Shown: piece by piece, positions 9,811-26,776 of the stretch
Position numbering within the stretch: position 1 is the first letter of the stretch
Layout: each line of letters starts with the position of its first letter
Assembly: GCA_023301795.1 (NCBI GenBank)
Contig: JALZVU010000121.1
Location: 1-64,000 of the forward strand
Direction: 5' to 3'
DNA from: Granulosicoccus sp.
Lineage (GTDB): Bacteria > Pseudomonadota > Gammaproteobacteria > Granulosicoccales > Granulosicoccaceae
Length of the DNA stretch: 64,000 bases
Notes under the pieces: generated by a model
What the model was told of the DNA's origin: nothing
Databases searched by the model: none
The model's input: the letters and a program-made list of their open reading frames with translations, nothing else
Program-made: the position numbers and the translations under genes

Positions 9811-10506
9811 CTATGACTTACGCATGAGTAGATAGACCCGCTCATCAAGAGTTTCAAGGCCTCGATCGCGAAGATTTCCGACCCGCTCTGGCCCTCCATA
9901 GTGTGCCAGCTCAGTGATCTCAAAGCCATCACCGAGTAAGTGCCGAACATTTTCATCAGATACCGAAAAAGGCGGCCCTTGCATAGCCGATTGATCATAT
10001 GAAATGGCGATCAGTAGACCCTGAGATGCCTCAGGCATCAACGTCACAAGGTGCTGCGCATAGTCGGCGCGCATGGCAGGATTCATGGCGATGAGCGACG
10101 CGCGATCATAAAACGTGCAACATTTTGCTGTGTGCTCGGGGGTCAAAGCGAAAAAATCACCCGCCAGAAGGGTTAGCCCATTAGCTGCGCCAGTGCCTGA
10201 GAAACACTCAAACTCGCCCTCTCGGGTTTGCTCAAACGTGAGCGCATTGTCACTGAAAAACGCCTTTACCGCATCCACACTGAGTTCGATACCAAGCACC
10301 TCAAAGCCCTGCGCATGGAGCCAGAGCATATCCAGCGACTTGCCGCACAACGGCACAAATACACAGGGGCGTTCTGATGATGCGTGAGGCGGCTGTAAGG
10401 CCGACAACACCTTGGGCCAATACCTTTCAAGTCGCTTGTTAACGACTGCCTGGTGGAAGCCGATTTTTTCTTCCGCCCACTTGTCCAGCCAGTATTGCGC
10501 TTCCAT
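9811..10506 (-). CDS. tpm: Thiopurine S-methyltransferase
   Basis: MEAQYWLDKWAEEKIGFHQAVVNKRLERYWP...VFVPLCGKSLDMLWLHAQGFEVLGIELS is diagnostic of bacterial TPMT. Confidence 0.93.
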   Translation of the reverse strand: MEAQYWLDKWAEEKIGFHQAVVNKRLERYWPKVLSALQPPHASSERPCVFVPLCGKSLDMLWLHAQGFEVLGIELSVDAVKAFFSDNALTFEQTREGEFECFSGTGAANGLTLLAGDFFALTPEHTAKCCTFYDRASLIAMNPAMRADYAQHLVTLMPEASQGLLIAISYDQSAMQGPPFSVSDENVRHLLGDGFEITELAHYGGPERVGNLRDRGLETLDERVYLLMRKS

Positions 10507-16907: not shown

Positions 16908-17762
16908 ATGACACAGTGTAGCGATCCGGTAGCGCTGGCTCTATGGCACCCCATTGCCGCTATCGAGGATATTCCAGCCGATGGAAAACAGAAAACTCAG
17001 CTACTCGGGGAAGTCCTGCATTATAGAAAAATGGATGACACTCGGGTCAGCGTGCATCACGGCGATCGCAAGTTACCGGTCACCCTAGCCTACGGTTATG
17101 TCTGGACGTGTCTGGGCACCCCAGAGCGAGACCTGTTCGATTTGCCGGAATATGCAGAATCAGACCGGCGCAATGTTTGCGCGGCAACCGTTGGCGTCAA
17201 TGTGTCAGCCCCGCGTGCGGTAGAAAATTTTCTGGACATGGGCCATTTTCCGTTTGTGCATACCGGCATCCTGGGCGCAGAGCCACATACGGAAGTGCGT
17301 GAATATCAGGTAAACGTTGATACTGAGCGTGATGAAATACTCGCCACAGAATGCCTGTTCTACCAGCCACAGGCAGCGGCAGGATCCTCCGGAGGCGTGA
17401 TGTCAGATTACATCTATCGAGTGCCACACCCGTACTGTGCGGTGCTGTACAAATCCTGCCCTACCGATGAATCTCGTTTGGATGTCATTGCGCTGTTCCT
17501 GCAGAGCGTGGATGAAGAAAATATCCGCGCACATGCCTTGGTGAGCGTTATCGATACGCAAAGCAGTGATCTGGACATTCGCATGTTCCAACAAAATATC
17601 TTCAGTCAGGACAAGCCCATACTGGAGAACCAGCTGCCCAAACGACTGCCACTGGATCCGCGTGCCGAGACGCCCATTCGAGCAGATAAGTCGGCCATCG
17701 CCTACAGGCGTTGGCTACGCACAAAGGGATTGCAATATGGCGTCTTGGCGGCAGCGGCCTGA
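16908..17762 (+). CDS. Rieske-less mononuclear non-heme iron oxygenase subunit, NdmC-like
   Basis: Ring-hydroxylating oxygenase catalytic motif NFLDMGHFPFVH (N-x2-D-x2-H-x4-H) and FQQNIFSQDKPILENQLPKRLP tail. No C-x-H...C-x2-H Rieske motif. WHPIAAIEDIP aligns with oxygenase N termini, supporting ATG at 16908 (ORF track begins at a TTG at 16839). Confidence 0.85.
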   Translation: MTQCSDPVALALWHPIAAIEDIPADGKQKTQLLGEVLHYRKMDDTRVSVHHGDRKLPVTLAYGYVWTCLGTPERDLFDLPEYAESDRRNVCAATVGVNVSAPRAVENFLDMGHFPFVHTGILGAEPHTEVREYQVNVDTERDEILATECLFYQPQAAAGSSGGVMSDYIYRVPHPYCAVLYKSCPTDESRLDVIALFLQSVDEENIRAHALVSVIDTQSSDLDIRMFQQNIFSQDKPILENQLPKRLPLDPRAETPIRADKSAIAYRRWLRTKGLQYGVLAAAA

Positions 17763-17917
17763 GTACTTGCACAGGCTCCTTAGCTATCAAATACTACAGA
17801 TCAATTATATGAATTTTTCGTTGATTCAAGGCCCCGATACTGTGTATCTTGAGCGTGACGATAGCTGTCACCCCACGCTCACTACACGTCCGCTCTCATG
17901 CTCCAATTCAGTGCCTC

Positions 17918-19762
17918 ATGATCGACCTTGAAGCAGCCCGTTATCGCTGGCACCCAGTAGCCAGCAGTACAGATCTGGTACCTCGTCACGTTTTTCAGGC
18001 TCAACTCCTGGGTCGTGAGATGGCGCTGTGGCGAGCTGACGACGGTAACGTCAACGCGTGGGAGAATCGCTGCCTGCATCGCGGTGTGCGCTTGTCCATC
18101 GGCATCAATGATGGTCGGGAGCTTGTATGCCAGTACCACGGCTGGCGTTATGCCAATCGCACTGCCGGGTGCACGTATATTCCAGCTCACCCGGCAGATG
18201 CGCCGGCACGCACCATCTGCAACAACACGTATCCGGCAGTGGAAAAGCACGGACTGATATGGAGCGGCGAGAAACCTGATGGCCAGATCCCCTCTCTGGA
18301 CGTGCTCGATACGACCTCTATCACGCCTCTACGCGGTGTCACCATCAATGTCCCACTTGAAAATATTGCGCTACCACTGATCGATTACTACAGTTCGGGA
18401 CAACGTGGGGCTTCAGGCGACTCAGTAGTTCACTACGGTGCTGACACCCCCGATCCGTTCCTGTTGATCTTGCATGCCCACGGCCATTTACATACCAGCG
18501 CCAACGCGCAAGCAGTCGATACTCCCACCCCTGATATTGCATTCTTCTTTCAACCCCTTGATGCCGCACGTACGGCTGTTCGTGGGGTTCTTTGTGGCGT
18601 CGACGAACACAACATCGGTAGTGCAGCACTCATCGCGTTGTTAAAGCAGCATAGCTTCATGCTCTGCCGCGCCAGGGATATTATCGAGTCCGGCCACAGG
18701 GACAAACCTGTACCCACCCCGTGGACGCCCTACATACCAAAGGTCAGCGACCGCCACGCTAGTATGCCGCCGCTCACGAGCGCCGGCCAGCAAGCCAAAT
18801 TACGCGTGCGCCTAAGCGCTATCGAAAATCTCTCACCCAGCGTAAAAACATTCCGCTTCCAGGCGTTAAACACACAAATCGAAAGCGCAGCACCGTCAGT
18901 GTTGCCAGTTGCGCAGCCCGGCGCGCATATCGACATTCACCTGCCCAATGGACTTGTCCGGCAATACTCCCTGATCAATGGTCCGGGACAAACAGATCAC
19001 TATGCGATCGCCGTAAAACGTCTTGATGATTCGACCGGAGGTTCGCACGCATTACACGATTCTCTGAAAGTGGGCGATGTACTGGCGACATCGGTTCCAC
19101 GCAATAATTTCACGTTGCGCCGTGACGCCGAACACACGCACCTGATTGCAGGCGGTATCGGGCTTACACCACTACTGTCTATGGCTCGTGCGCTCGATCA
19201 TTCAAACCTGCCCTTTACCCTGCATCATTTCATTGCAACCGAAACTGACGCCATCAATCGCGCAGAGCTTGAGAACATGAGTGCCGCCGTACACTGGCAT
19301 GTTGGACAAGATGTTCAACAAACTCAAGACACTCTGAGCGCCTTGCTTGACGCGCCCACAGAACACCATCATGTGTACATTTGCGGGCCGGGCGCGATGC
19401 TTGGCTTTACAAGAGAGACGGCTGCAACCCGTGGATGGGCTGATGAATCCATACACTTTGAATATTTCAAAAACCCTGATGTGGTGGATGACTCATCCGA
19501 GTTCAATGTAGAACTTGCGCGCTCTGGACTGTCACTTCAAGTACCTGCCGGCAAAAGCCTGCTTAGCGTTCTGCGTGAGCACAATGTGGGCGTGCAGTCG
19601 TCCTGCGAACAAGGCGCTTGTGGAACCTGCCGGGTAGAGGTTCTTGAAGGCGAGCCCGATCATCAGGATGTTTATCTAAGCGATACTGAAAAAGCGCAAG
19701 GCAACTGTCTGATGAGCTGTGTGTCCAGAGCGCGCTCAAAGCGACTGGTGCTGGATTTATAA
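17918..19762 (+). CDS. Oxygenase reductase with N-terminal Rieske domain, FMN/NAD reductase and C-terminal plant-type ferredoxin, NdmD-like
   Basis: Rieske motif CLHRG...CQYHGW near the N terminus; flavin motif RQYSLINGP; NAD region GGIGLTPLLSMAR...YICGPGAML; ferredoxin CEQGACGTC...C. ATG at 17918 preferred (MIDLEAARYRWHPVA). Confidence 0.9.
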   Translation: MIDLEAARYRWHPVASSTDLVPRHVFQAQLLGREMALWRADDGNVNAWENRCLHRGVRLSIGINDGRELVCQYHGWRYANRTAGCTYIPAHPADAPARTICNNTYPAVEKHGLIWSGEKPDGQIPSLDVLDTTSITPLRGVTINVPLENIALPLIDYYSSGQRGASGDSVVHYGADTPDPFLLILHAHGHLHTSANAQAVDTPTPDIAFFFQPLDAARTAVRGVLCGVDEHNIGSAALIALLKQHSFMLCRARDIIESGHRDKPVPTPWTPYIPKVSDRHASMPPLTSAGQQAKLRVRLSAIENLSPSVKTFRFQALNTQIESAAPSVLPVAQPGAHIDIHLPNGLVRQYSLINGPGQTDHYAIAVKRLDDSTGGSHALHDSLKVGDVLATSVPRNNFTLRRDAEHTHLIAGGIGLTPLLSMARALDHSNLPFTLHHFIATETDAINRAELENMSAAVHWHVGQDVQQTQDTLSALLDAPTEHHHVYICGPGAMLGFTRETAATRGWADESIHFEYFKNPDVVDDSSEFNVELARSGLSLQVPAGKSLLSVLREHNVGVQSSCEQGACGTCRVEVLEGEPDHQDVYLSDTEKAQGNCLMSCVSRARSKRLVLDL

Positions 19763-19789
19763 AGTGGCACAGCGAAACGGGCGAACATC

Positions 19790-20485
19790 ATGATTATTCT
19801 CTACGACTACGAGCTATCGGGCAACTGCTACAAGGTACGGCTGTTGTTAAGCATGCTAAATGTTAGCTATGAAAAAAAAGCCATTGAGTTCTACCCGGCA
19901 GCCGAACATAAAACTGATGCGTTCCTGAGCATCAATGCGCTGGGGCAATTGCCTGTAATACAAACCGGCGACCTGACAATCAATGATTCTCATGCCATTC
20001 TGGTCTATCTGGCTCGACAATACGACAAGAGCGACACTTGGTTCCCCATCAGTGATCCGGTGCGACTCGCTCAAGTCACACAATGGATGTGTTTTGCCGA
20101 CTCACTAACCAGTTCTGCTTCGTCAGCTCGCCTTGTCAACGGTTTTTTCTACGACTTGGATGGTGAAGCCTGCCGACAAGAGGCGCATCGCCTTTTTCGA
20201 ATATTTGATGAACATCTTTGGTTCAACGAGCGCGAGGATCATCTCTGGGTAGTACCAGGCAAGACGCCTACCATTGCTGATCTGGCTTGTTTTGCCTATG
20301 TGGTCCTGTCTGAAGAAGGCGGCATATCGAGGATGGATTATCCGGCTATTCGGCGCTGGACAGACAGAGTGAAACGACTCGCAGGCTTTGTTGTCATGCC
20401 CGGTGTATTCCCAGCAGGACCAGGGCCTGTTCATGTACTACCCGCTAATGACACATTCCCATCAGCAGGCACTGCCGAAGCATGA
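19790..20485 (+). CDS. Glutathione S-transferase-like protein, NdmE-like
   Basis: GST N-terminal thioredoxin fold (MIILYDYELSGNCYKVRLLLSMLNVSYE...NALGQLPVIQTGDLTINDSHAILVYLARQY) and C-terminal domain (PTIADLACFAYV). Stop overlaps the next start (ATGA). Confidence 0.9.
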   Translation: MIILYDYELSGNCYKVRLLLSMLNVSYEKKAIEFYPAAEHKTDAFLSINALGQLPVIQTGDLTINDSHAILVYLARQYDKSDTWFPISDPVRLAQVTQWMCFADSLTSSASSARLVNGFFYDLDGEACRQEAHRLFRIFDEHLWFNEREDHLWVVPGKTPTIADLACFAYVVLSEEGGISRMDYPAIRRWTDRVKRLAGFVVMPGVFPAGPGPVHVLPANDTFPSAGTAEA

Positions 20486-21999
20486 ACTCATTACTTCAGC
20501 TTCGGGGAATCAGCAAGATTTACCCAGCCGTAGTGGCTAACGATCGTATCGATCTAGACATCGCTCCTGGAGAAATTCACGCCATTCTTGGAGAAAACGG
20601 CGCTGGCAAATCCACGCTAATGAAACTCATCTATGGCGTCAGCCAACCCGACGAGGGCAACATTACATGGCAGGGAAAACCTGTCGTTATCAAAAGCCCA
20701 GCGCAAGCGCGCAATCTGGGCATTGGTATGGTCTTCCAGCATTTTTCGTTGTTTGAGTCATTAAGCGTTGCACAGAATATTTCACTAGCTGTCAAAGGCT
20801 CGATTAAACATCTATCAGAACAAGTGGAAGCGGTGGGTGAAGAATTCGGCCTGCCACTGTCCGCGGACACACTCGTGCATTCGCTGTCAGTGGGTGAACG
20901 ACAACGCGTGGAAATTATCCGCTGCCTGCTGCAACAACCCAAACTATTAATCATGGACGAACCCACGTCGGTGCTACCGCCACAAGGTGTGCAGCAACTA
21001 TTCAACACCTTGCGCAAACTACGTGACACCGGCTGCAGTATTCTGTACATCAGCCACAAACTTGAAGAGATCCGACAACTGTGTGACAAGGCAACCATCT
21101 TGCGAAGTGGGAAAGTAGTAGCCACCGCCAGACCTGGCGAACATAGCAATGAAGAGCTCGCCCATTTGATGATCGGGCGCACTATCGCCCCACCAGAACA
21201 TGCACCTGCAGAGCCTGCCTCCGAGCAAGCGCTGTCTGTTACACAGCTCGCTTACGAACCCGACGACCCTTTTGGCACACGTCTGAAAGACATCAATCTA
21301 CAGGTGTACCCGGGAGAGATTGTCGGCATCGCCGGGGTCTCTGGCAACGGTCAAAACGAGCTGATGCGATTGATCTCTGGCGAAGAAATGCTCACAAAGC
21401 AAGACACAGGCGACATATTTATCGGCTCACAGAAATCCAATACACTGACTGCAACACAACGTCGCACACTGGGTCTTGGCTTTGTGCCAGAAGAACGGCT
21501 GGGGCGTGGTGCAGTGCCAGACTTGTCATTATCATTCAATGGCCTGTTAACAGCCTACCGTCATGGCCTAACCCGATTTGGCATGATTCGCCATAAAAAG
21601 GTGAGAGCGTTTGCCGATGAGTGTATTGCTCAAAATGATGTACGGTGTGGCGGAAACCAATCGGTGGCGGCCAGTTTATCCGGTGGCAATTTGCAAAAAT
21701 TTATAGTGGGTCGTGAAATTGCCTTGGCACCTTCCCTGTTTGTGCTGTCCCAACCGACCTGGGGACTGGATGTGGGTGCTGCGAGCAACATCCGTAAAGC
21801 CCTACTCCAGCTGCGCGATAACGGCGCAGCCATCTTGGTAGTCTCAGAAGAGTTGGAAGAACTGTTTGAAATAAGCGACAGATTGCACGTGATTTATGAC
21901 GGCTACCTATCTCCATCGCTGAACGCACGCAGCGCTACTGCCACTCAAATTGGTCGCTGGATGACCGGTGAATTTTCTAACGCTGGCGAGGTGGCCTGA
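20482..21999 (+). CDS. BMP-type purine/nucleoside ABC transporter, dual ATP-binding protein
   Basis: Walker A GENGAGKSTLMKLIYG; signatures LSVGERQRVEII and LSGGNLQKFIVGREIA; sugar/nucleoside-type ATPase architecture. Confidence 0.93.
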   Translation: MNSLLQLRGISKIYPAVVANDRIDLDIAPGEIHAILGENGAGKSTLMKLIYGVSQPDEGNITWQGKPVVIKSPAQARNLGIGMVFQHFSLFESLSVAQNISLAVKGSIKHLSEQVEAVGEEFGLPLSADTLVHSLSVGERQRVEIIRCLLQQPKLLIMDEPTSVLPPQGVQQLFNTLRKLRDTGCSILYISHKLEEIRQLCDKATILRSGKVVATARPGEHSNEELAHLMIGRTIAPPEHAPAEPASEQALSVTQLAYEPDDPFGTRLKDINLQVYPGEIVGIAGVSGNGQNELMRLISGEEMLTKQDTGDIFIGSQKSNTLTATQRRTLGLGFVPEERLGRGAVPDLSLSFNGLLTAYRHGLTRFGMIRHKKVRAFADECIAQNDVRCGGNQSVAASLSGGNLQKFIVGREIALAPSLFVLSQPTWGLDVGAASNIRKALLQLRDNGAAILVVSEELEELFEISDRLHVIYDGYLSPSLNARSATATQIGRWMTGEFSNAGEVA

Positions 22000-23066
22000 T
22001 GCCCTACCGCCTGGTCGCACGCACCGAGCCTTCACTGCGTGCACAGCTATTAGTACCACTGGCTGCCATCCTGCTGACCTTGCTCGCAGGTTCCCTGCTA
22101 TTCACGCTATTGGGAAAAAATGCACTAGACGCGTTCTATGCATTTTTTATAGAACCATTAACCACCCGCTACGGCATTGGAGAAGTACTGCTAAAAATGG
22201 GACCGTTGCTACTGATTGCACAAGGACTCGCCATTGGCTTTCGCGCCAGGGTCTGGAACATTGGTGCCGAAGGGCAACTGCTAGTCGGTGCTATTGCAGC
22301 AGGAGCGCTTGCGCTACATTTCGAGTCATCAGACTCTGTCTGGTTACTGCCGGCAATGATTTGTGCAGGCACTCTGGCAGGAGCTGCATGGGCTGGAATA
22401 GCTGCCTGGCTACGCACAAGCTGCAATGCCAACGAAATACTCGTTACATTTATGCTGTCTAGTATTGCATTACAGCTCTTGTATTATCTGGTAAGCGGCC
22501 CACTGCGCGACCCGATGGGAATGAGCTTTCCACAATCGGCATTGTTCGGTGACGCTGCCATGTTCGCCCCCTTGATGGACAACACCCGTGTGAACACCTC
22601 CCTACTGCTTGCGTTAATTGCCTCATTGGTTGCGTGGATTTTCGTACAACGCAGCATGCCAGGCTTTAAATTACTTGTGGGTGGTCAAGCACCTGAGGCT
22701 GCACGCTACGCAGGCTTTGCACAAAAACGCGCGGTCTGGATCGGCTTACTGATTGGGGGTGCTGCAGCTGGTATGGCCGGTGTGGGTGAAGTGGCAGGAC
22801 CTTTGGGACTACTGCAACGATCGATATCACCGGGCTATGGGTTTGCTGCCATCATCGTTGCATTTCTTGGCGGCTTGCATCCCATTGGGATTGTATTTGC
22901 AGCCTTCTTCATGGCGCTTATCTATGTGGGTGGCGACATGTCGTTAGTATCCGTTGGGCTACCAAACTCCTCCACTACAATTTTTCAAGGCATGTTGCTG
23001 GTTTTCTATCTGGCTTGTTTCCTGTTTGCACACCATCGATTGCAGCGAATAGAGATAAAACGCTAA
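21999..23066 (+). CDS. BMP-type ABC transporter permease
   Basis: Multi-TM protein with GLAIGFRARVWNIGAEGQLLVGAIAAG, characteristic of nucleoside-type permeases; TGATG overlap with the ATPase gene. Confidence 0.92.
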   Translation: MPYRLVARTEPSLRAQLLVPLAAILLTLLAGSLLFTLLGKNALDAFYAFFIEPLTTRYGIGEVLLKMGPLLLIAQGLAIGFRARVWNIGAEGQLLVGAIAAGALALHFESSDSVWLLPAMICAGTLAGAAWAGIAAWLRTSCNANEILVTFMLSSIALQLLYYLVSGPLRDPMGMSFPQSALFGDAAMFAPLMDNTRVNTSLLLALIASLVAWIFVQRSMPGFKLLVGGQAPEAARYAGFAQKRAVWIGLLIGGAAAGMAGVGEVAGPLGLLQRSISPGYGFAAIIVAFLGGLHPIGIVFAAFFMALIYVGGDMSLVSVGLPNSSTTIFQGMLLVFYLACFLFAHHRLQRIEIKR

Positions 23067-23989
23067 TGCTTGATTCCGTTATCTTTCTGCTGGCTAGTAC
23101 ACTAGCGGCTGCCACCCCCTTACTCTTCGCAGCAGTAGGTGAGGCGGTAGTTGAGAAAACCGGTGTTCTGAACCTGAGCATTGAGGGCATGATGGCCATA
23201 GGGGCAGCCACCGGCTTTGTCGTTGCAACCTTGAGTGGCTCCTATGTTCAGGGCTTTGCCATGGCCGCTATTGCCAGTGCCCTGCTATCTGCCGTGTTCG
23301 CAGGGCTGGTGCTGACGTTTCTCGCCAACCAGGTGGCCGCCGGGCTTGCCATTGGTATTCTGGGGCTGGGTCTATCGGTACTAATCGGAAAAGAATTCGA
23401 AGGGACCACCATCATTCCACTTCAGGATCTGGATTTAGGCACCCTCAGCGAATTGCCTTTCATCGGACCTGTGTTGTTTTCTCACGATGTGATGGTGTAC
23501 GTGGGCATGGCGACCGTAATTGTCTGTTGGTGGGTACTTAGTCACACAAGACTTGGATTGATTATACGTGCGGTTGGCGAGTCGCCGTCGGCTGCCGCAA
23601 CTATCGGCTATCCGGTGCTATTGATCCGTCTGCTAGCAATAGTGTTTGGAGGTGCCATGGCAGGACTTGGCGGCGCCTACCTCACGCTTGCCTACACACC
23701 GCTATGGGCAGAAGGCTTGGTGGCGGGGCGTGGCTGGATTGTCGTCGCTCTTGTGGTATTCGGTATGTGGCGGCCACTACGAATCGCAATTGGTGCTTAT
23801 CTGTTTGGTGCAGTATCACTGCTTGAGCTATTCATTCAAGGCCAAGGTTATGCTATCCCCTCGCAGCTAATGTCCGCCATGCCGTACATCATCACCATTA
23901 CCGTACTCGCGGTAATTTCGCGTAATCCTCGATTAATACGACTGAACCATCCCGCATCACTGGGGCAGACTTATAACAAAAGCGCATGA
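23066..23989 (+). CDS. BMP-type ABC transporter permease (second)
   Basis: TPLLFAAVGEAVVEKTGVLNLSIEGMMAIGAATGFV; TAATG overlap with the preceding stop sets the start at 23066. Confidence 0.92.
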   Translation: MLDSVIFLLASTLAAATPLLFAAVGEAVVEKTGVLNLSIEGMMAIGAATGFVVATLSGSYVQGFAMAAIASALLSAVFAGLVLTFLANQVAAGLAIGILGLGLSVLIGKEFEGTTIIPLQDLDLGTLSELPFIGPVLFSHDVMVYVGMATVIVCWWVLSHTRLGLIIRAVGESPSAAATIGYPVLLIRLLAIVFGGAMAGLGGAYLTLAYTPLWAEGLVAGRGWIVVALVVFGMWRPLRIAIGAYLFGAVSLLELFIQGQGYAIPSQLMSAMPYIITITVLAVISRNPRLIRLNHPASLGQTYNKSA

Positions 23990-24110
23990 GGCAGCGGCTT
24001 GGAAACAGCAAACCAGCATTTACCACCTGCGTTTACGGAATATTCGATTCAAGATGCTCTTAAGTTTTTTAACATTCTATTTTCCCATTCAACAATCACT
24101 GGAAGAAGTC

Positions 24111-25202
24111 ATGAAAACATGGATTAAGTCAGCACGCACTATTGCGTGGTCTCTGGCAACAGCGCTCACGATAGGCACAGCGCCCGCACAGGCACAAGAT
24201 GTCTTCAAAATAGGCTACATCTATCCTTCGCCTGCGGGTGATGTGGGTTGGGCTCATGAGCTTGATCGAGGTCGTCTTGCTATTGAAGAGAAGTTCGGCG
24301 ACAAAGTTGAAAGCGTAGTGGTAGAAAACATTCCAGAAGGTCCAGATGCTGCCCGCATCATGAATCAGATGGCTGCTCAAGGCGTAGACATGATGATGCT
24401 GGGCTCGTTCGGCTACATGAACGATGGTCTGAAAACCGCCAAGCGCTACTCTGATATCGACTTCATTCACGCAAGTGGTTACAAGCTGCTTGATAATCTG
24501 GGAAACTTCCAGACCCGTAACTATGAAGCTGCTTATGTAGCCGGTATGGGAGCAGGCTTTGTTACCGAAACCAACACAATTGGCATGGTAGCCGCCTATG
24601 CCATTCCAGAAGTGGTTGGACTGATCAACGCTTTCACACTGGGTGCGCAAGCCACCAATGCAGACATCAGCGTTAAGGTTGTTTGGCTTAATTCCTGGTT
24701 CGACCCAAGCAAGGCGCAGGAATCAGCCCGCTCTTTAATGGCGCAACAATCAGACGTCATTTTTTCAATCTACCAAGACACGCCCTCGGTTGTCAGCGTA
24801 GCAGAAGAGGAAGGTGTGTATGTGGTAAACACCAGCTCTGACATGAAACAGTACGCATCTAATCAACTGCTTGTATCCTTGCAGATCAGTTGGGCGGATT
24901 ACTTCATCGAGCAGGTGCAGGCTTCTATGGATGACACCTTTGTGGGCAGCGCCTTTTGGGGTGGTATGGCAGACAACGCAGTTAGCATGGCATCTTGGAG
25001 CGACGATCTGAGCGCCGAACAACGAGCCACACTGGATTCAACAGTGGCCAGGATTTCCTCCGGCGAGTTTCACCCGTTTCAGGGTCCGGTGATTGATCAG
25101 GCAGGTGATGAAAAAATCGCTGAAGGTGACACGTTGGCTGACGGTGATCTATTGGCTATTAGCTGGTTGGTAAAAGGTGTCGAAACCCAACTACCGAAAT
25201 AG
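24111..25202 (+). CDS. BMP family ABC transporter substrate-binding protein
   Basis: Signal peptide MKTWIKSARTIAWSLATALTIGTAPAQAQ; FKIGYIYPSPAGDVGWAHELDRGR; ATG at 24111 preceded by GGAAGAAG. Confidence 0.92.
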   Translation: MKTWIKSARTIAWSLATALTIGTAPAQAQDVFKIGYIYPSPAGDVGWAHELDRGRLAIEEKFGDKVESVVVENIPEGPDAARIMNQMAAQGVDMMMLGSFGYMNDGLKTAKRYSDIDFIHASGYKLLDNLGNFQTRNYEAAYVAGMGAGFVTETNTIGMVAAYAIPEVVGLINAFTLGAQATNADISVKVVWLNSWFDPSKAQESARSLMAQQSDVIFSIYQDTPSVVSVAEEEGVYVVNTSSDMKQYASNQLLVSLQISWADYFIEQVQASMDDTFVGSAFWGGMADNAVSMASWSDDLSAEQRATLDSTVARISSGEFHPFQGPVIDQAGDEKIAEGDTLADGDLLAISWLVKGVETQLPK

Positions 25203-25242
25203 CTCAGAGCCTGCCCGATAACCATAATCGCGCAAGTTATAG

Positions 25243-25271
25243 AACCTGACAGCTATCCGCTGTCAGGTTTC
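25243..25271 (+). terminator. Hairpin/terminator after the BMP transporter genes
   Basis: Perfect 11-bp inverted repeat AACCTGACAGC-TATCC-GCTGTCAGGTT followed by TCT; T tract is short. Confidence 0.7.
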
Positions 25272-25390
25272 TACAAAAAACCAGAGCCACTGTAAGAGCC
25301 TCATACGGTGTCGCACAAGCGGTGTGCTGCGCAGACAGCTATCGCTAACTATAGTCTTCTACCCGGAAAATTGAACAAAGCAATTATTAG

Positions 25391-26776
25391 ATGACAATCA
25401 AAGAATCATGTACTGATCAATGGTTTCTCGGCCAGTTCATGCATGCACCGACACTCGGATCGCTTGACGTGTTGCAAAAGACATTGATCCGAGTTGACAG
25501 CGAAGGCACTATTATCTCGCGACACCAGTCTGGTACTGATGACTTTGAAAGCTCATTGGCGCACGCACACCAGTGCGACGCGCTGACATCAATGGGCTGT
25601 GATCAAATAATGATTCCGGGCTTAGTCGATCTGCACATACATGCTCCCCAATGGCCTCAATTGGGTAAAGCGCTGCATTTACCATTGCAGGACTGGTTAC
25701 AAAAATACACCTTCCCACTTGAAGCACGCTACTCAGATATCGAATACGCACGGTGCGTCTACTCATCACTGGTCAATTCGCTGTTGGCTAATGGCACAAC
25801 CACAGCCATGTACTTTGCAACGATTCACGAAGAGGCAACCACGCTGCTTGCCTCTACCTGTCTTGAATCAGGACAGCGAGCTTATGTGGGTCGTGTTGCC
25901 ATGGATGATCCAGAGCAATGCCCTGAATATTATCGAGATGCCAATGCAAAGGCGGCCCTTGCCGCCAGCGAACGCAGCATTCATCACATCAGACAATTGT
26001 CAGGCAATAGTACACAACTCGTTAAACCTGTTATCACGCCACGTTTCATACCCAGCTGTAGCAATGAGTTGCTGCAAGGTTTAGGCGAGCTGGCATCACA
26101 CAAGCAATGCCATGTACAAACGCATTGTTCTGAAAGTGATTGGGAACATAGCTACGTTTTAAACAGGCTGGCTAAAACAGATACACAAGCACTATCAGAC
26201 TTTGGATTATTGAGCCGTCATACCGTGCTCGCTCATTCCAACTTCATCACCGAACAGGATATGCAGCTGATCAAACAATCCGGCAGTGGCATTGCACATT
26301 GCGCACTATCAAACAGCTACTTTGCCGATAGTGTATTCCCGCTACGACGTGCGCTGGAAAAATCACTACGTGTTGGCCTAGGGACTGATATTGCGGGCGG
26401 ACACAGTGCATCAATGTTCAGCGCTTGCCAGCATGCGGTGTCCGCCTCACGCATGCTTGAAGCAGGCGTGGATACGCAACTAACACAAGACAAACGCGGC
26501 CAGCCTGGATCCCGCATCAACTACATCGATGCATTCCATCTTGCTACTGCGGGTGGTGCCGCTGTACTTGACAGCCCCACAGGTACATTTGATGTCGGCA
26601 AACAATTTGACGCTTTACTGCTGGAACTGAATACCCCCTCTAATCGCTTAAACGAATTCGTTGACACCGATGACTGGGAATCTCTTCTCGCATGCATCGT
26701 CTACAATGCCCAAGCTTGCAATATTGCTCATGTATGGGTATCAGGTAGAAGCGTTAAATGTGAACAAACAAGGTAG
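25391..26776 (+). CDS. guaD: Guanine deaminase (amidohydrolase superfamily)
   Basis: PGLVDLHIHAPQWPQLGKALHLPLQDWLQKYTFPLEARYSD, VQTHCSES, TVLAHSNF, GLGTDIAGGHSASM: metal-binding and active-site motifs of guanine deaminase. Confidence 0.92.
   Translation: MTIKESCTDQWFLGQFMHAPTLGSLDVLQKTLIRVDSEGTIISRHQSGTDDFESSLAHAHQCDALTSMGCDQIMIPGLVDLHIHAPQWPQLGKALHLPLQDWLQKYTFPLEARYSDIEYARCVYSSLVNSLLANGTTTAMYFATIHEEATTLLASTCLESGQRAYVGRVAMDDPEQCPEYYRDANAKAALAASERSIHHIRQLSGNSTQLVKPVITPRFIPSCSNELLQGLGELASHKQCHVQTHCSESDWEHSYVLNRLAKTDTQALSDFGLLSRHTVLAHSNFITEQDMQLIKQSGSGIAHCALSNSYFADSVFPLRRALEKSLRVGLGTDIAGGHSASMFSACQHAVSASRMLEAGVDTQLTQDKRGQPGSRINYIDAFHLATAGGAAVLDSPTGTFDVGKQFDALLLELNTPSNRLNEFVDTDDWESLLACIVYNAQACNIAHVWVSGRSVKCEQTR

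Follow-up and report, generated by a model that had tools for sequence, protein, structure and literature searches.

The stretch of DNA analysed here, a window of 64,000 nt from contig JALZVU010000121.1 of Granulosicoccus sp., carries a candidate locus for the uptake and N-demethylation of methylated guanine. The locus spans 16908-26776 (all coordinates are positions in the window) and comprises eight genes arranged head to tail on the plus strand. All eight are intact, with intergenic gaps of -4 to 188 bases. Every part named by an initial annotation of the sequence was recovered at its position and on the plus strand, using the list of open reading frames together with Pfam and NCBIfam scans. 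The features are as follows.

16908..17762, plus strand: ndmC-like catalytic subunit, 284 amino acids (VanA_C domain only, Pfam)
17918..19762, plus strand: ndmD-like electron-transfer protein, 614 amino acids (Rieske, FAD, NAD and Fer2 domains, Pfam)
17948..18196, plus strand: Rieske [2Fe-2S] domain of the NdmD-like protein (PF00355)
18302..18871, plus strand: predicted degenerate, ligand-less oxygenase catalytic domain within the NdmD-like protein (hhalign, AF2/Foldseek)
19790..20485, plus strand: ndmE-like GST-fold protein (GST_N)
20482..21999, plus strand: ATPase of a BMP/PnrA-type ABC importer, with a double ABC domain (Pfam/NCBIfam scans)
21999..23066, plus strand: permease 1 of the importer (BPD_transp_2; Pfam/NCBIfam scans)
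23066..23989, plus strand: permease 2 of the importer (BPD_transp_2; Pfam/NCBIfam scans)
24111..25202, plus strand: BMP-type periplasmic purine-binding protein, AtzT-like (Bmp/PnrA; PF02608)
25391..26776, plus strand: guanine deaminase paralogue of a second, human-GDA-like GuaD lineage (TIGR02967, tree, active-site residues)

For assignment of the first three genes, plasmid pTmex-577K of P. putida MT178 was used as the caffeine reference; it was found via its NdmA, which is 92% identical over 205 amino acids to the NdmA in the Protein Data Bank (PDB). Identity to the plasmid proteins was 47% over 279 amino acids for NdmC, 38% over the reductase and 47% over the Rieske part for NdmD, and 58% over 210 amino acids for the GST and NdmE, in line with the NdmC/D/E assignment made earlier. 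NdmA and NdmB from the same plasmid matched at 26-29% only. The window also shows the NdmCDE-type layout, with a catalytic subunit lacking the cluster, a reductase with an extra Rieske domain, and an adjacent GST-fold partner. In the caffeine pathway of P. putida CBB5, which has the same three-protein layout, NdmCDE is the 7-methylxanthine N7-demethylase, described in the relevant passages as specific for 7-methylxanthine (PMC4408171).

The window set differs from the CBB5 system in other respects. A tree of 135 NdmC-like proteins separated the caffeine-plasmid, type II (described below), tandem "NdmCb" and window groups, and placed the window NdmC with those of Granulosicoccaceae (support 99), outside the caffeine-plasmid clade. 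A search of the whole genome with NdmA returned partial Rieske matches of at most 33% and no ndmA/ndmB orthologue, bearing out the earlier remark that no such oxygenase was visible. A caffeine operon was rejected for want of these orthologues. The window trio, whose substrate is a putative one, is also linked to genes for a BMP importer and for guanine deaminase, where the caffeine clusters seen have an NCS2 permease and caffeine genes.

The initial annotation had described the oxygenase as Rieske-less; this holds for the [2Fe-2S]-binding loops, which are missing, but not for the Rieske β-scaffold, which is retained in the AlphaFold2 (AF2) model and the profile alignment. The NdmC model (pLDDT 88) aligned over the entire SxtT fold, with a TM-score of 0.74 normalised by target, so that the N-terminus of NdmC is a Rieske scaffold without its cluster-binding loops. 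Both by sequence and by fold, the best PDB matches of NdmC were SxtT/GxtA, not NdmA/NdmB. NdmC residues D110, H113, H118, and D235 were invariant in two alignments (A1 and A3); we take D110 to be the bridging Asp and the other three to be the 2-His-1-carboxylate ligands of Rieske oxygenases.

NdmD contains the Rieske motifs CxH/CxxH and the plant-type Fer2 motif CX4CX2C. By hhalign profile comparison, its residues 9-259 aligned to NdmC 11-242 (probability 98.6, E 1e-15), as did the post-Rieske residues 129-318 alone to NdmC (probability 89.6, E 1.9e-6). In the profile alignment NdmC is gapped exactly at the cluster ligands of NdmD, and NdmD is devoid of the iron ligands. Stand-alone Rieske proteins of other clusters matched the NdmD N-terminus end to end (E 1.9e-65), and the model of this region (AF2/Foldseek) spans full oxygenase subunits, though its confidence near the cluster is low and its TM-score only about 0.5. 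Judged from these profiles, the N-terminal half of NdmD is a whole, degenerate Rieske-oxygenase subunit, and we infer that NdmC and NdmD are complementary decayed duplicates, formed by duplication and then complementary loss. Since Rieske oxygenases are known to pass electrons head to tail from one subunit to its neighbour, an NdmC/NdmD hetero-oligomer would be workable.

The importer is complete, comprising the Bmp binding protein, the double-ABC ATPase, and both BPD_transp_2 permeases. The closest PDB relatives of the binding protein are AtzT (6pi5) and the adenine-bound Brucella protein 3s99; AtzT copurifies with guanine (Kd 110 nM; PMC6834077). The aromatic sandwich around the purine, Ser97, Phe98, and Glu165 are kept, and together with the proximity to AtzT the retained sandwich fits an importer of guanine-binding type. 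With respect to AtzT, Trp194 is also kept and Tyr45 is replaced by Trp, whereas Asn169, Asn218, and the Asn at position 220 are Leu, Ile, and Asp, respectively; five core residues of the pocket are thus kept or conservatively replaced and three edge residues differ. The other purine BMP protein of the genome has Gly/His at positions 169/218. The hydrophobic replacements at these two positions would suit a methyl group. Nucleosides, the other substrate class considered initially, are less likely: free bases are what the ligand-characterised relatives of the binding protein bind, and no nucleosidase is encoded in the window cluster. A vitamin B6 BMP transporter (NF047927-30) was rejected, with scores of 51, 423, 175, and 175 bits against cutoffs of 400, 670, 400, and 465.

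The product of the last gene scored 388.3 bits against TIGR02967, above the family cutoff of 375.4. The idea that it is the sole guanine deaminase of the genome was rejected, as a canonical copy (586 bits) is present on contig C124 beside another BMP-type importer. The canonical gene (L181, L043; contig ends C124 and C186) lies divergent from this second importer (the importer operon probably runs on into C186), and the pair looks like an ordinary guanine uptake and deamination unit. In the tree, all proteobacterial NdmCDE-linked GuaDs of at least about 50% identity formed one clade (support 100), with human GDA as sister and apart from canonical copies, placing the window protein in a paralogue lineage that is closer to human GDA than the genome's canonical GuaD is. 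The linked GuaDs, the window protein included, keep every catalytic and every guanine-contacting residue of GDA (H82, H84, Q87, R213, F214, H240, E243, H279, and D330), and clade-specific changes were found at W88, N281, and A/P337.

Conservation of the cluster was examined across genomes. The eight-gene order is identical in several Granulosicoccaceae (L026-L029, L031, L064, and L066), and the genes that flank the cluster in the window were not found around these relatives' copies; the cluster is therefore more than a chance assembly. Eighty NdmC loci were collected from one genome scan; related species are over-represented among them, and short contigs at some loci make the neighbour counts minimum figures. 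Neighbours of NdmC at these loci were NdmD (75), GST (70), BMP (41), formaldehyde dehydrogenase (13), often followed by an S-formylglutathione-hydrolase-like esterase, and a window-type GuaD (10). Strong NdmC proteins were found in 15 of 399 evenly sampled Pseudomonadota genomes; of the 14 neighbourhoods examined, 11 had a BMP gene no more than about 10 kb from NdmC. Linkage of NdmCDE to the BMP importer is conserved; that to guaD held in part of the family.

Near NdmC homologues elsewhere, a BMP importer, formaldehyde dehydrogenase, xanthine dehydrogenase, purine permease, or deaminase was found. In Nocardioides (L101), genes for an NCS2 purine permease/OHCU decarboxylase, two xanthine dehydrogenase proteins, GuaD, NdmC, NdmD, and GST are consecutive; S. 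meliloti pSymA carries a BMP importer, GntR, two NdmC-like genes, NdmD, and GST. The passages of PMC4408171 on ndmCDE homologues in Sinorhizobium, Mesorhizobium, Klebsiella, and Janthinobacterium note them as of unknown function and give them no importer or deaminase linkage. These homologues share the trio with the window, and in pSymA the adjoining BMP importer as well, but most are without a linked guaD and many have tandem NdmC paralogues. Such paralogues, two or three to one NdmD, occur in several bacteria; in Ensifer/Rhizobium (L082, L086, L096, and L102) three NdmC-like genes accompany one NdmD and a GST, with serine hydroxymethyltransferase and formaldehyde dehydrogenase genes nearby. 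An NdmCDE-like trio with a TIM-barrel protein, a 2OG-Fe oxygenase, and a nucleobase permease was also seen on conjugative plasmids of Klebsiella pneumoniae (L045, a urine isolate) and P. putida KF715 (L044).

A sister arrangement, termed type II, was found in other Granulosicoccus, Rhizobium, and Agrobacterium, and consists of a separate Rieske protein, NdmC, GST, an amidohydrolase, and a BMP importer. The amidohydrolase (L046:13477-14856; equivalents in L033-L039, L051, and L233-L236) carries all eight residues compared with NdmH, at the same numbers (Q74, N165, C213, Q214, N217, E243, H275, and D326). NdmH is an N2,N2-dimethylguanine hydrolase (PMC13054789), and the paper describing it does not contain the terms Rieske, BMP, demethyl, or transporter. 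The full signature suggests catabolism of dimethyl- or trimethylguanine (RNA cap) in rhizobia and Granulosicoccus; NdmH-type enzymes belong to these sister clusters, whereas the window has GuaD. Four strong members of the type II amidohydrolase were present in the 399-genome sample, all adjoining NdmC and all from one family. In Paracoccus and Methylopila clusters, an 8-oxoguanine-deaminase-type enzyme takes the place of the deaminase. The stand-alone Rieske/NdmC/GST sets are often accompanied by a small protein resembling acylphosphatase (PF00708 at 20.7 bits, slightly below the cutoff), as in L033-L038, L046, L049, L051, L176, L232-L236, and L244-L246, and by annotation in L047 too; none was found next to fused NdmD sets.

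On this evidence, we read the cluster as a self-contained operon through which a ring-N-methylated guanine would be scavenged, 7-methylguanine from RNA/DNA turnover being the likeliest candidate; we put this reading at a probability of roughly 0.58. Of the grounds on which the initial annotation would have given up its interpretation, none was found to apply within the reach of this analysis. That the cluster performs purine N-demethylation is highly probable; an N-methylguanine as its substrate, more narrowly 7-methylguanine, and the sequence of the two reactions are inferred. The importer would take up the free base, the dedicated deaminase paralogue would strip the exocyclic amino group to give 7-methylxanthine, and the NdmCDE-type oxygenase would remove the N7 methyl with NADH and O2 to yield xanthine and formaldehyde. 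Electrons would pass from NADH via flavin, the plant-type [2Fe-2S] cluster, and the Rieske cluster, all within the NdmD-like protein, to the iron of NdmC, with the GST as an assembly partner. Xanthine would then enter the xanthine dehydrogenase route, and formaldehyde would be oxidised by glutathione-dependent formaldehyde dehydrogenase. Fitting the products proposed initially, xanthine dehydrogenase (XdhB; C206, 1161 bits) and glutathione-dependent formaldehyde dehydrogenase (FrmA; C91, 627 bits) are both encoded elsewhere in the genome.

Several observations weigh against this reading. At 47% identity and in a separate clade, the window NdmC cannot be assumed to share N7 specificity, and since many NdmCDE homologues (Devosia and most Sinorhizobium/Mesorhizobium) have no linked guaD, the oxygenase has no general tie to guanine. 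Counted in favour of the reading, window-type GuaD was present, within the family, in 8 of 9 genomes with a window-type cluster and in 2 of 27 others (Fisher p 1.3e-5), a test that treats related genomes as independent and ignores phylogeny. Against specialisation, this GuaD was found in 7 of the 399 sampled genomes and adjoins NdmC in two only, that of the window and G768 (37 bases from NdmC); the five unlinked copies led us to reject exclusivity to NdmCDE clusters. Copies without NdmC are mostly beside NCS2 permeases or PNP/NupC, so the enzyme may simply deaminate guanine.

Also compatible is demethylation first, whereby NdmCDE would turn 7-methylguanine into guanine for ordinary deamination by GuaD. 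This reverse order is a variant within the reading above and overlaps it; it is a possible one, though held tentatively. The intact guanine pocket of the linked GuaDs, the GuaD-clade relatives beside purine/nucleoside permeases, and the genomes in which this GuaD is the only strong one (G003 and G018) speak for it, against which stand the 7-methylxanthine specificity given for NdmCDE in those passages of PMC4408171 and the fact that linked GuaDs have clade-specific changes and duplicate an existing GuaD.

Scavenging of methylxanthine along the lines of caffeine degradation (7-methylxanthine itself or some dimethylxanthine intermediate), with GuaD merely using co-imported guanine, is unlikely. 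It would account for the substrate described for NdmCDE in the same passages, the many clusters without a deaminase, and a GuaD whose pocket matches ordinary guanine deaminases and whose relatives occur in plain guanine/nucleoside salvage settings, but not for a genome that lacks ndmA/ndmB orthologues and already has a canonical GuaD with its own importer. The caffeine clusters seen moreover use an NCS2 permease, and the nearest relative of the window binding protein prefers guanine. Another ring-methylated purine (1-methylguanine, 1- or 3-methylxanthine, 7,9-dimethylguanine, or similar), acted on by an NdmC clade shifted in regiospecificity, is rather improbable: the separate clade and the tandem paralogues, which suggest different positions or substrates, are set against the N7 specificity of the sole characterised member and a deaminase that requires a guanine-like pyrimidine edge. 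Lastly, the SxtT/GxtA matches, ranking ahead of NdmA/NdmB, raised non-purine hydroxylation, e.g. of a guanidinium alkaloid; an SxtT-like hydroxylase was considered for this fold match and disfavoured as very improbable, given the far higher identity to NdmC, the split NdmD and GST that fit NdmCDE, and the purine and formaldehyde genes as neighbours.

Scans for sigma-70 promoters and terminators gave sites no more numerous than in shuffled sequence. A thiopurine S-methyltransferase (TPMT) gene lies on the minus strand of the window (9811-10506), with two large helicase/nuclease-like genes between it and the cluster; its presence there is probably coincidental.

The NdmCDE layout, BMP importers, and GuaD are already known; nothing equivalent to the whole cluster was found in the open literature searched. 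Likewise, no described 7-methylguanine degradation pathway was found in open-access literature (subscription papers lay outside that search), in agreement with the initial annotation, which knew of no pathway linking these parts. Methylated guanines, including 7-methylguanine, are steadily released from RNA and damaged DNA, and their natural consumers were not established in the literature searched; mammals excrete 7-methylguanine unchanged.

The varied deaminases (GuaD, NdmH-type, and 8-oxoguanine-type) motivate a broader and, as a whole, doubtful idea, namely that the NdmC family serves bacteria in general for the catabolism of N7-methylated guanines, with one N7-demethylase module paired with interchangeable deaminases. 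GuaD would serve 7-methylguanine (window type), NdmH 2,2,7-trimethylguanine, the base of the trimethylguanosine RNA cap (type II, in Rhizobium and other Granulosicoccus), and the 8-oxoguanine-deaminase-like enzyme 8-oxo-7-methylguanine (Paracoccus and Methylopila), each giving a 7-methyl-(oxo)xanthine for an oxygenase whose two parts are complementary, decayed copies of a single ancestral subunit. If true, RNA caps and the modified bases of RNA would be recycled in this way. The deaminase swap predicts substrate differences between cluster types. The complementary decay of NdmC and NdmD suggests a reason for the split in this Rieske oxygenase, and the conserved partners (purine-base importer, deaminase, formaldehyde dehydrogenase, and xanthine dehydrogenase) give ndmCDE homologues outside caffeine degraders specific, testable predictions.

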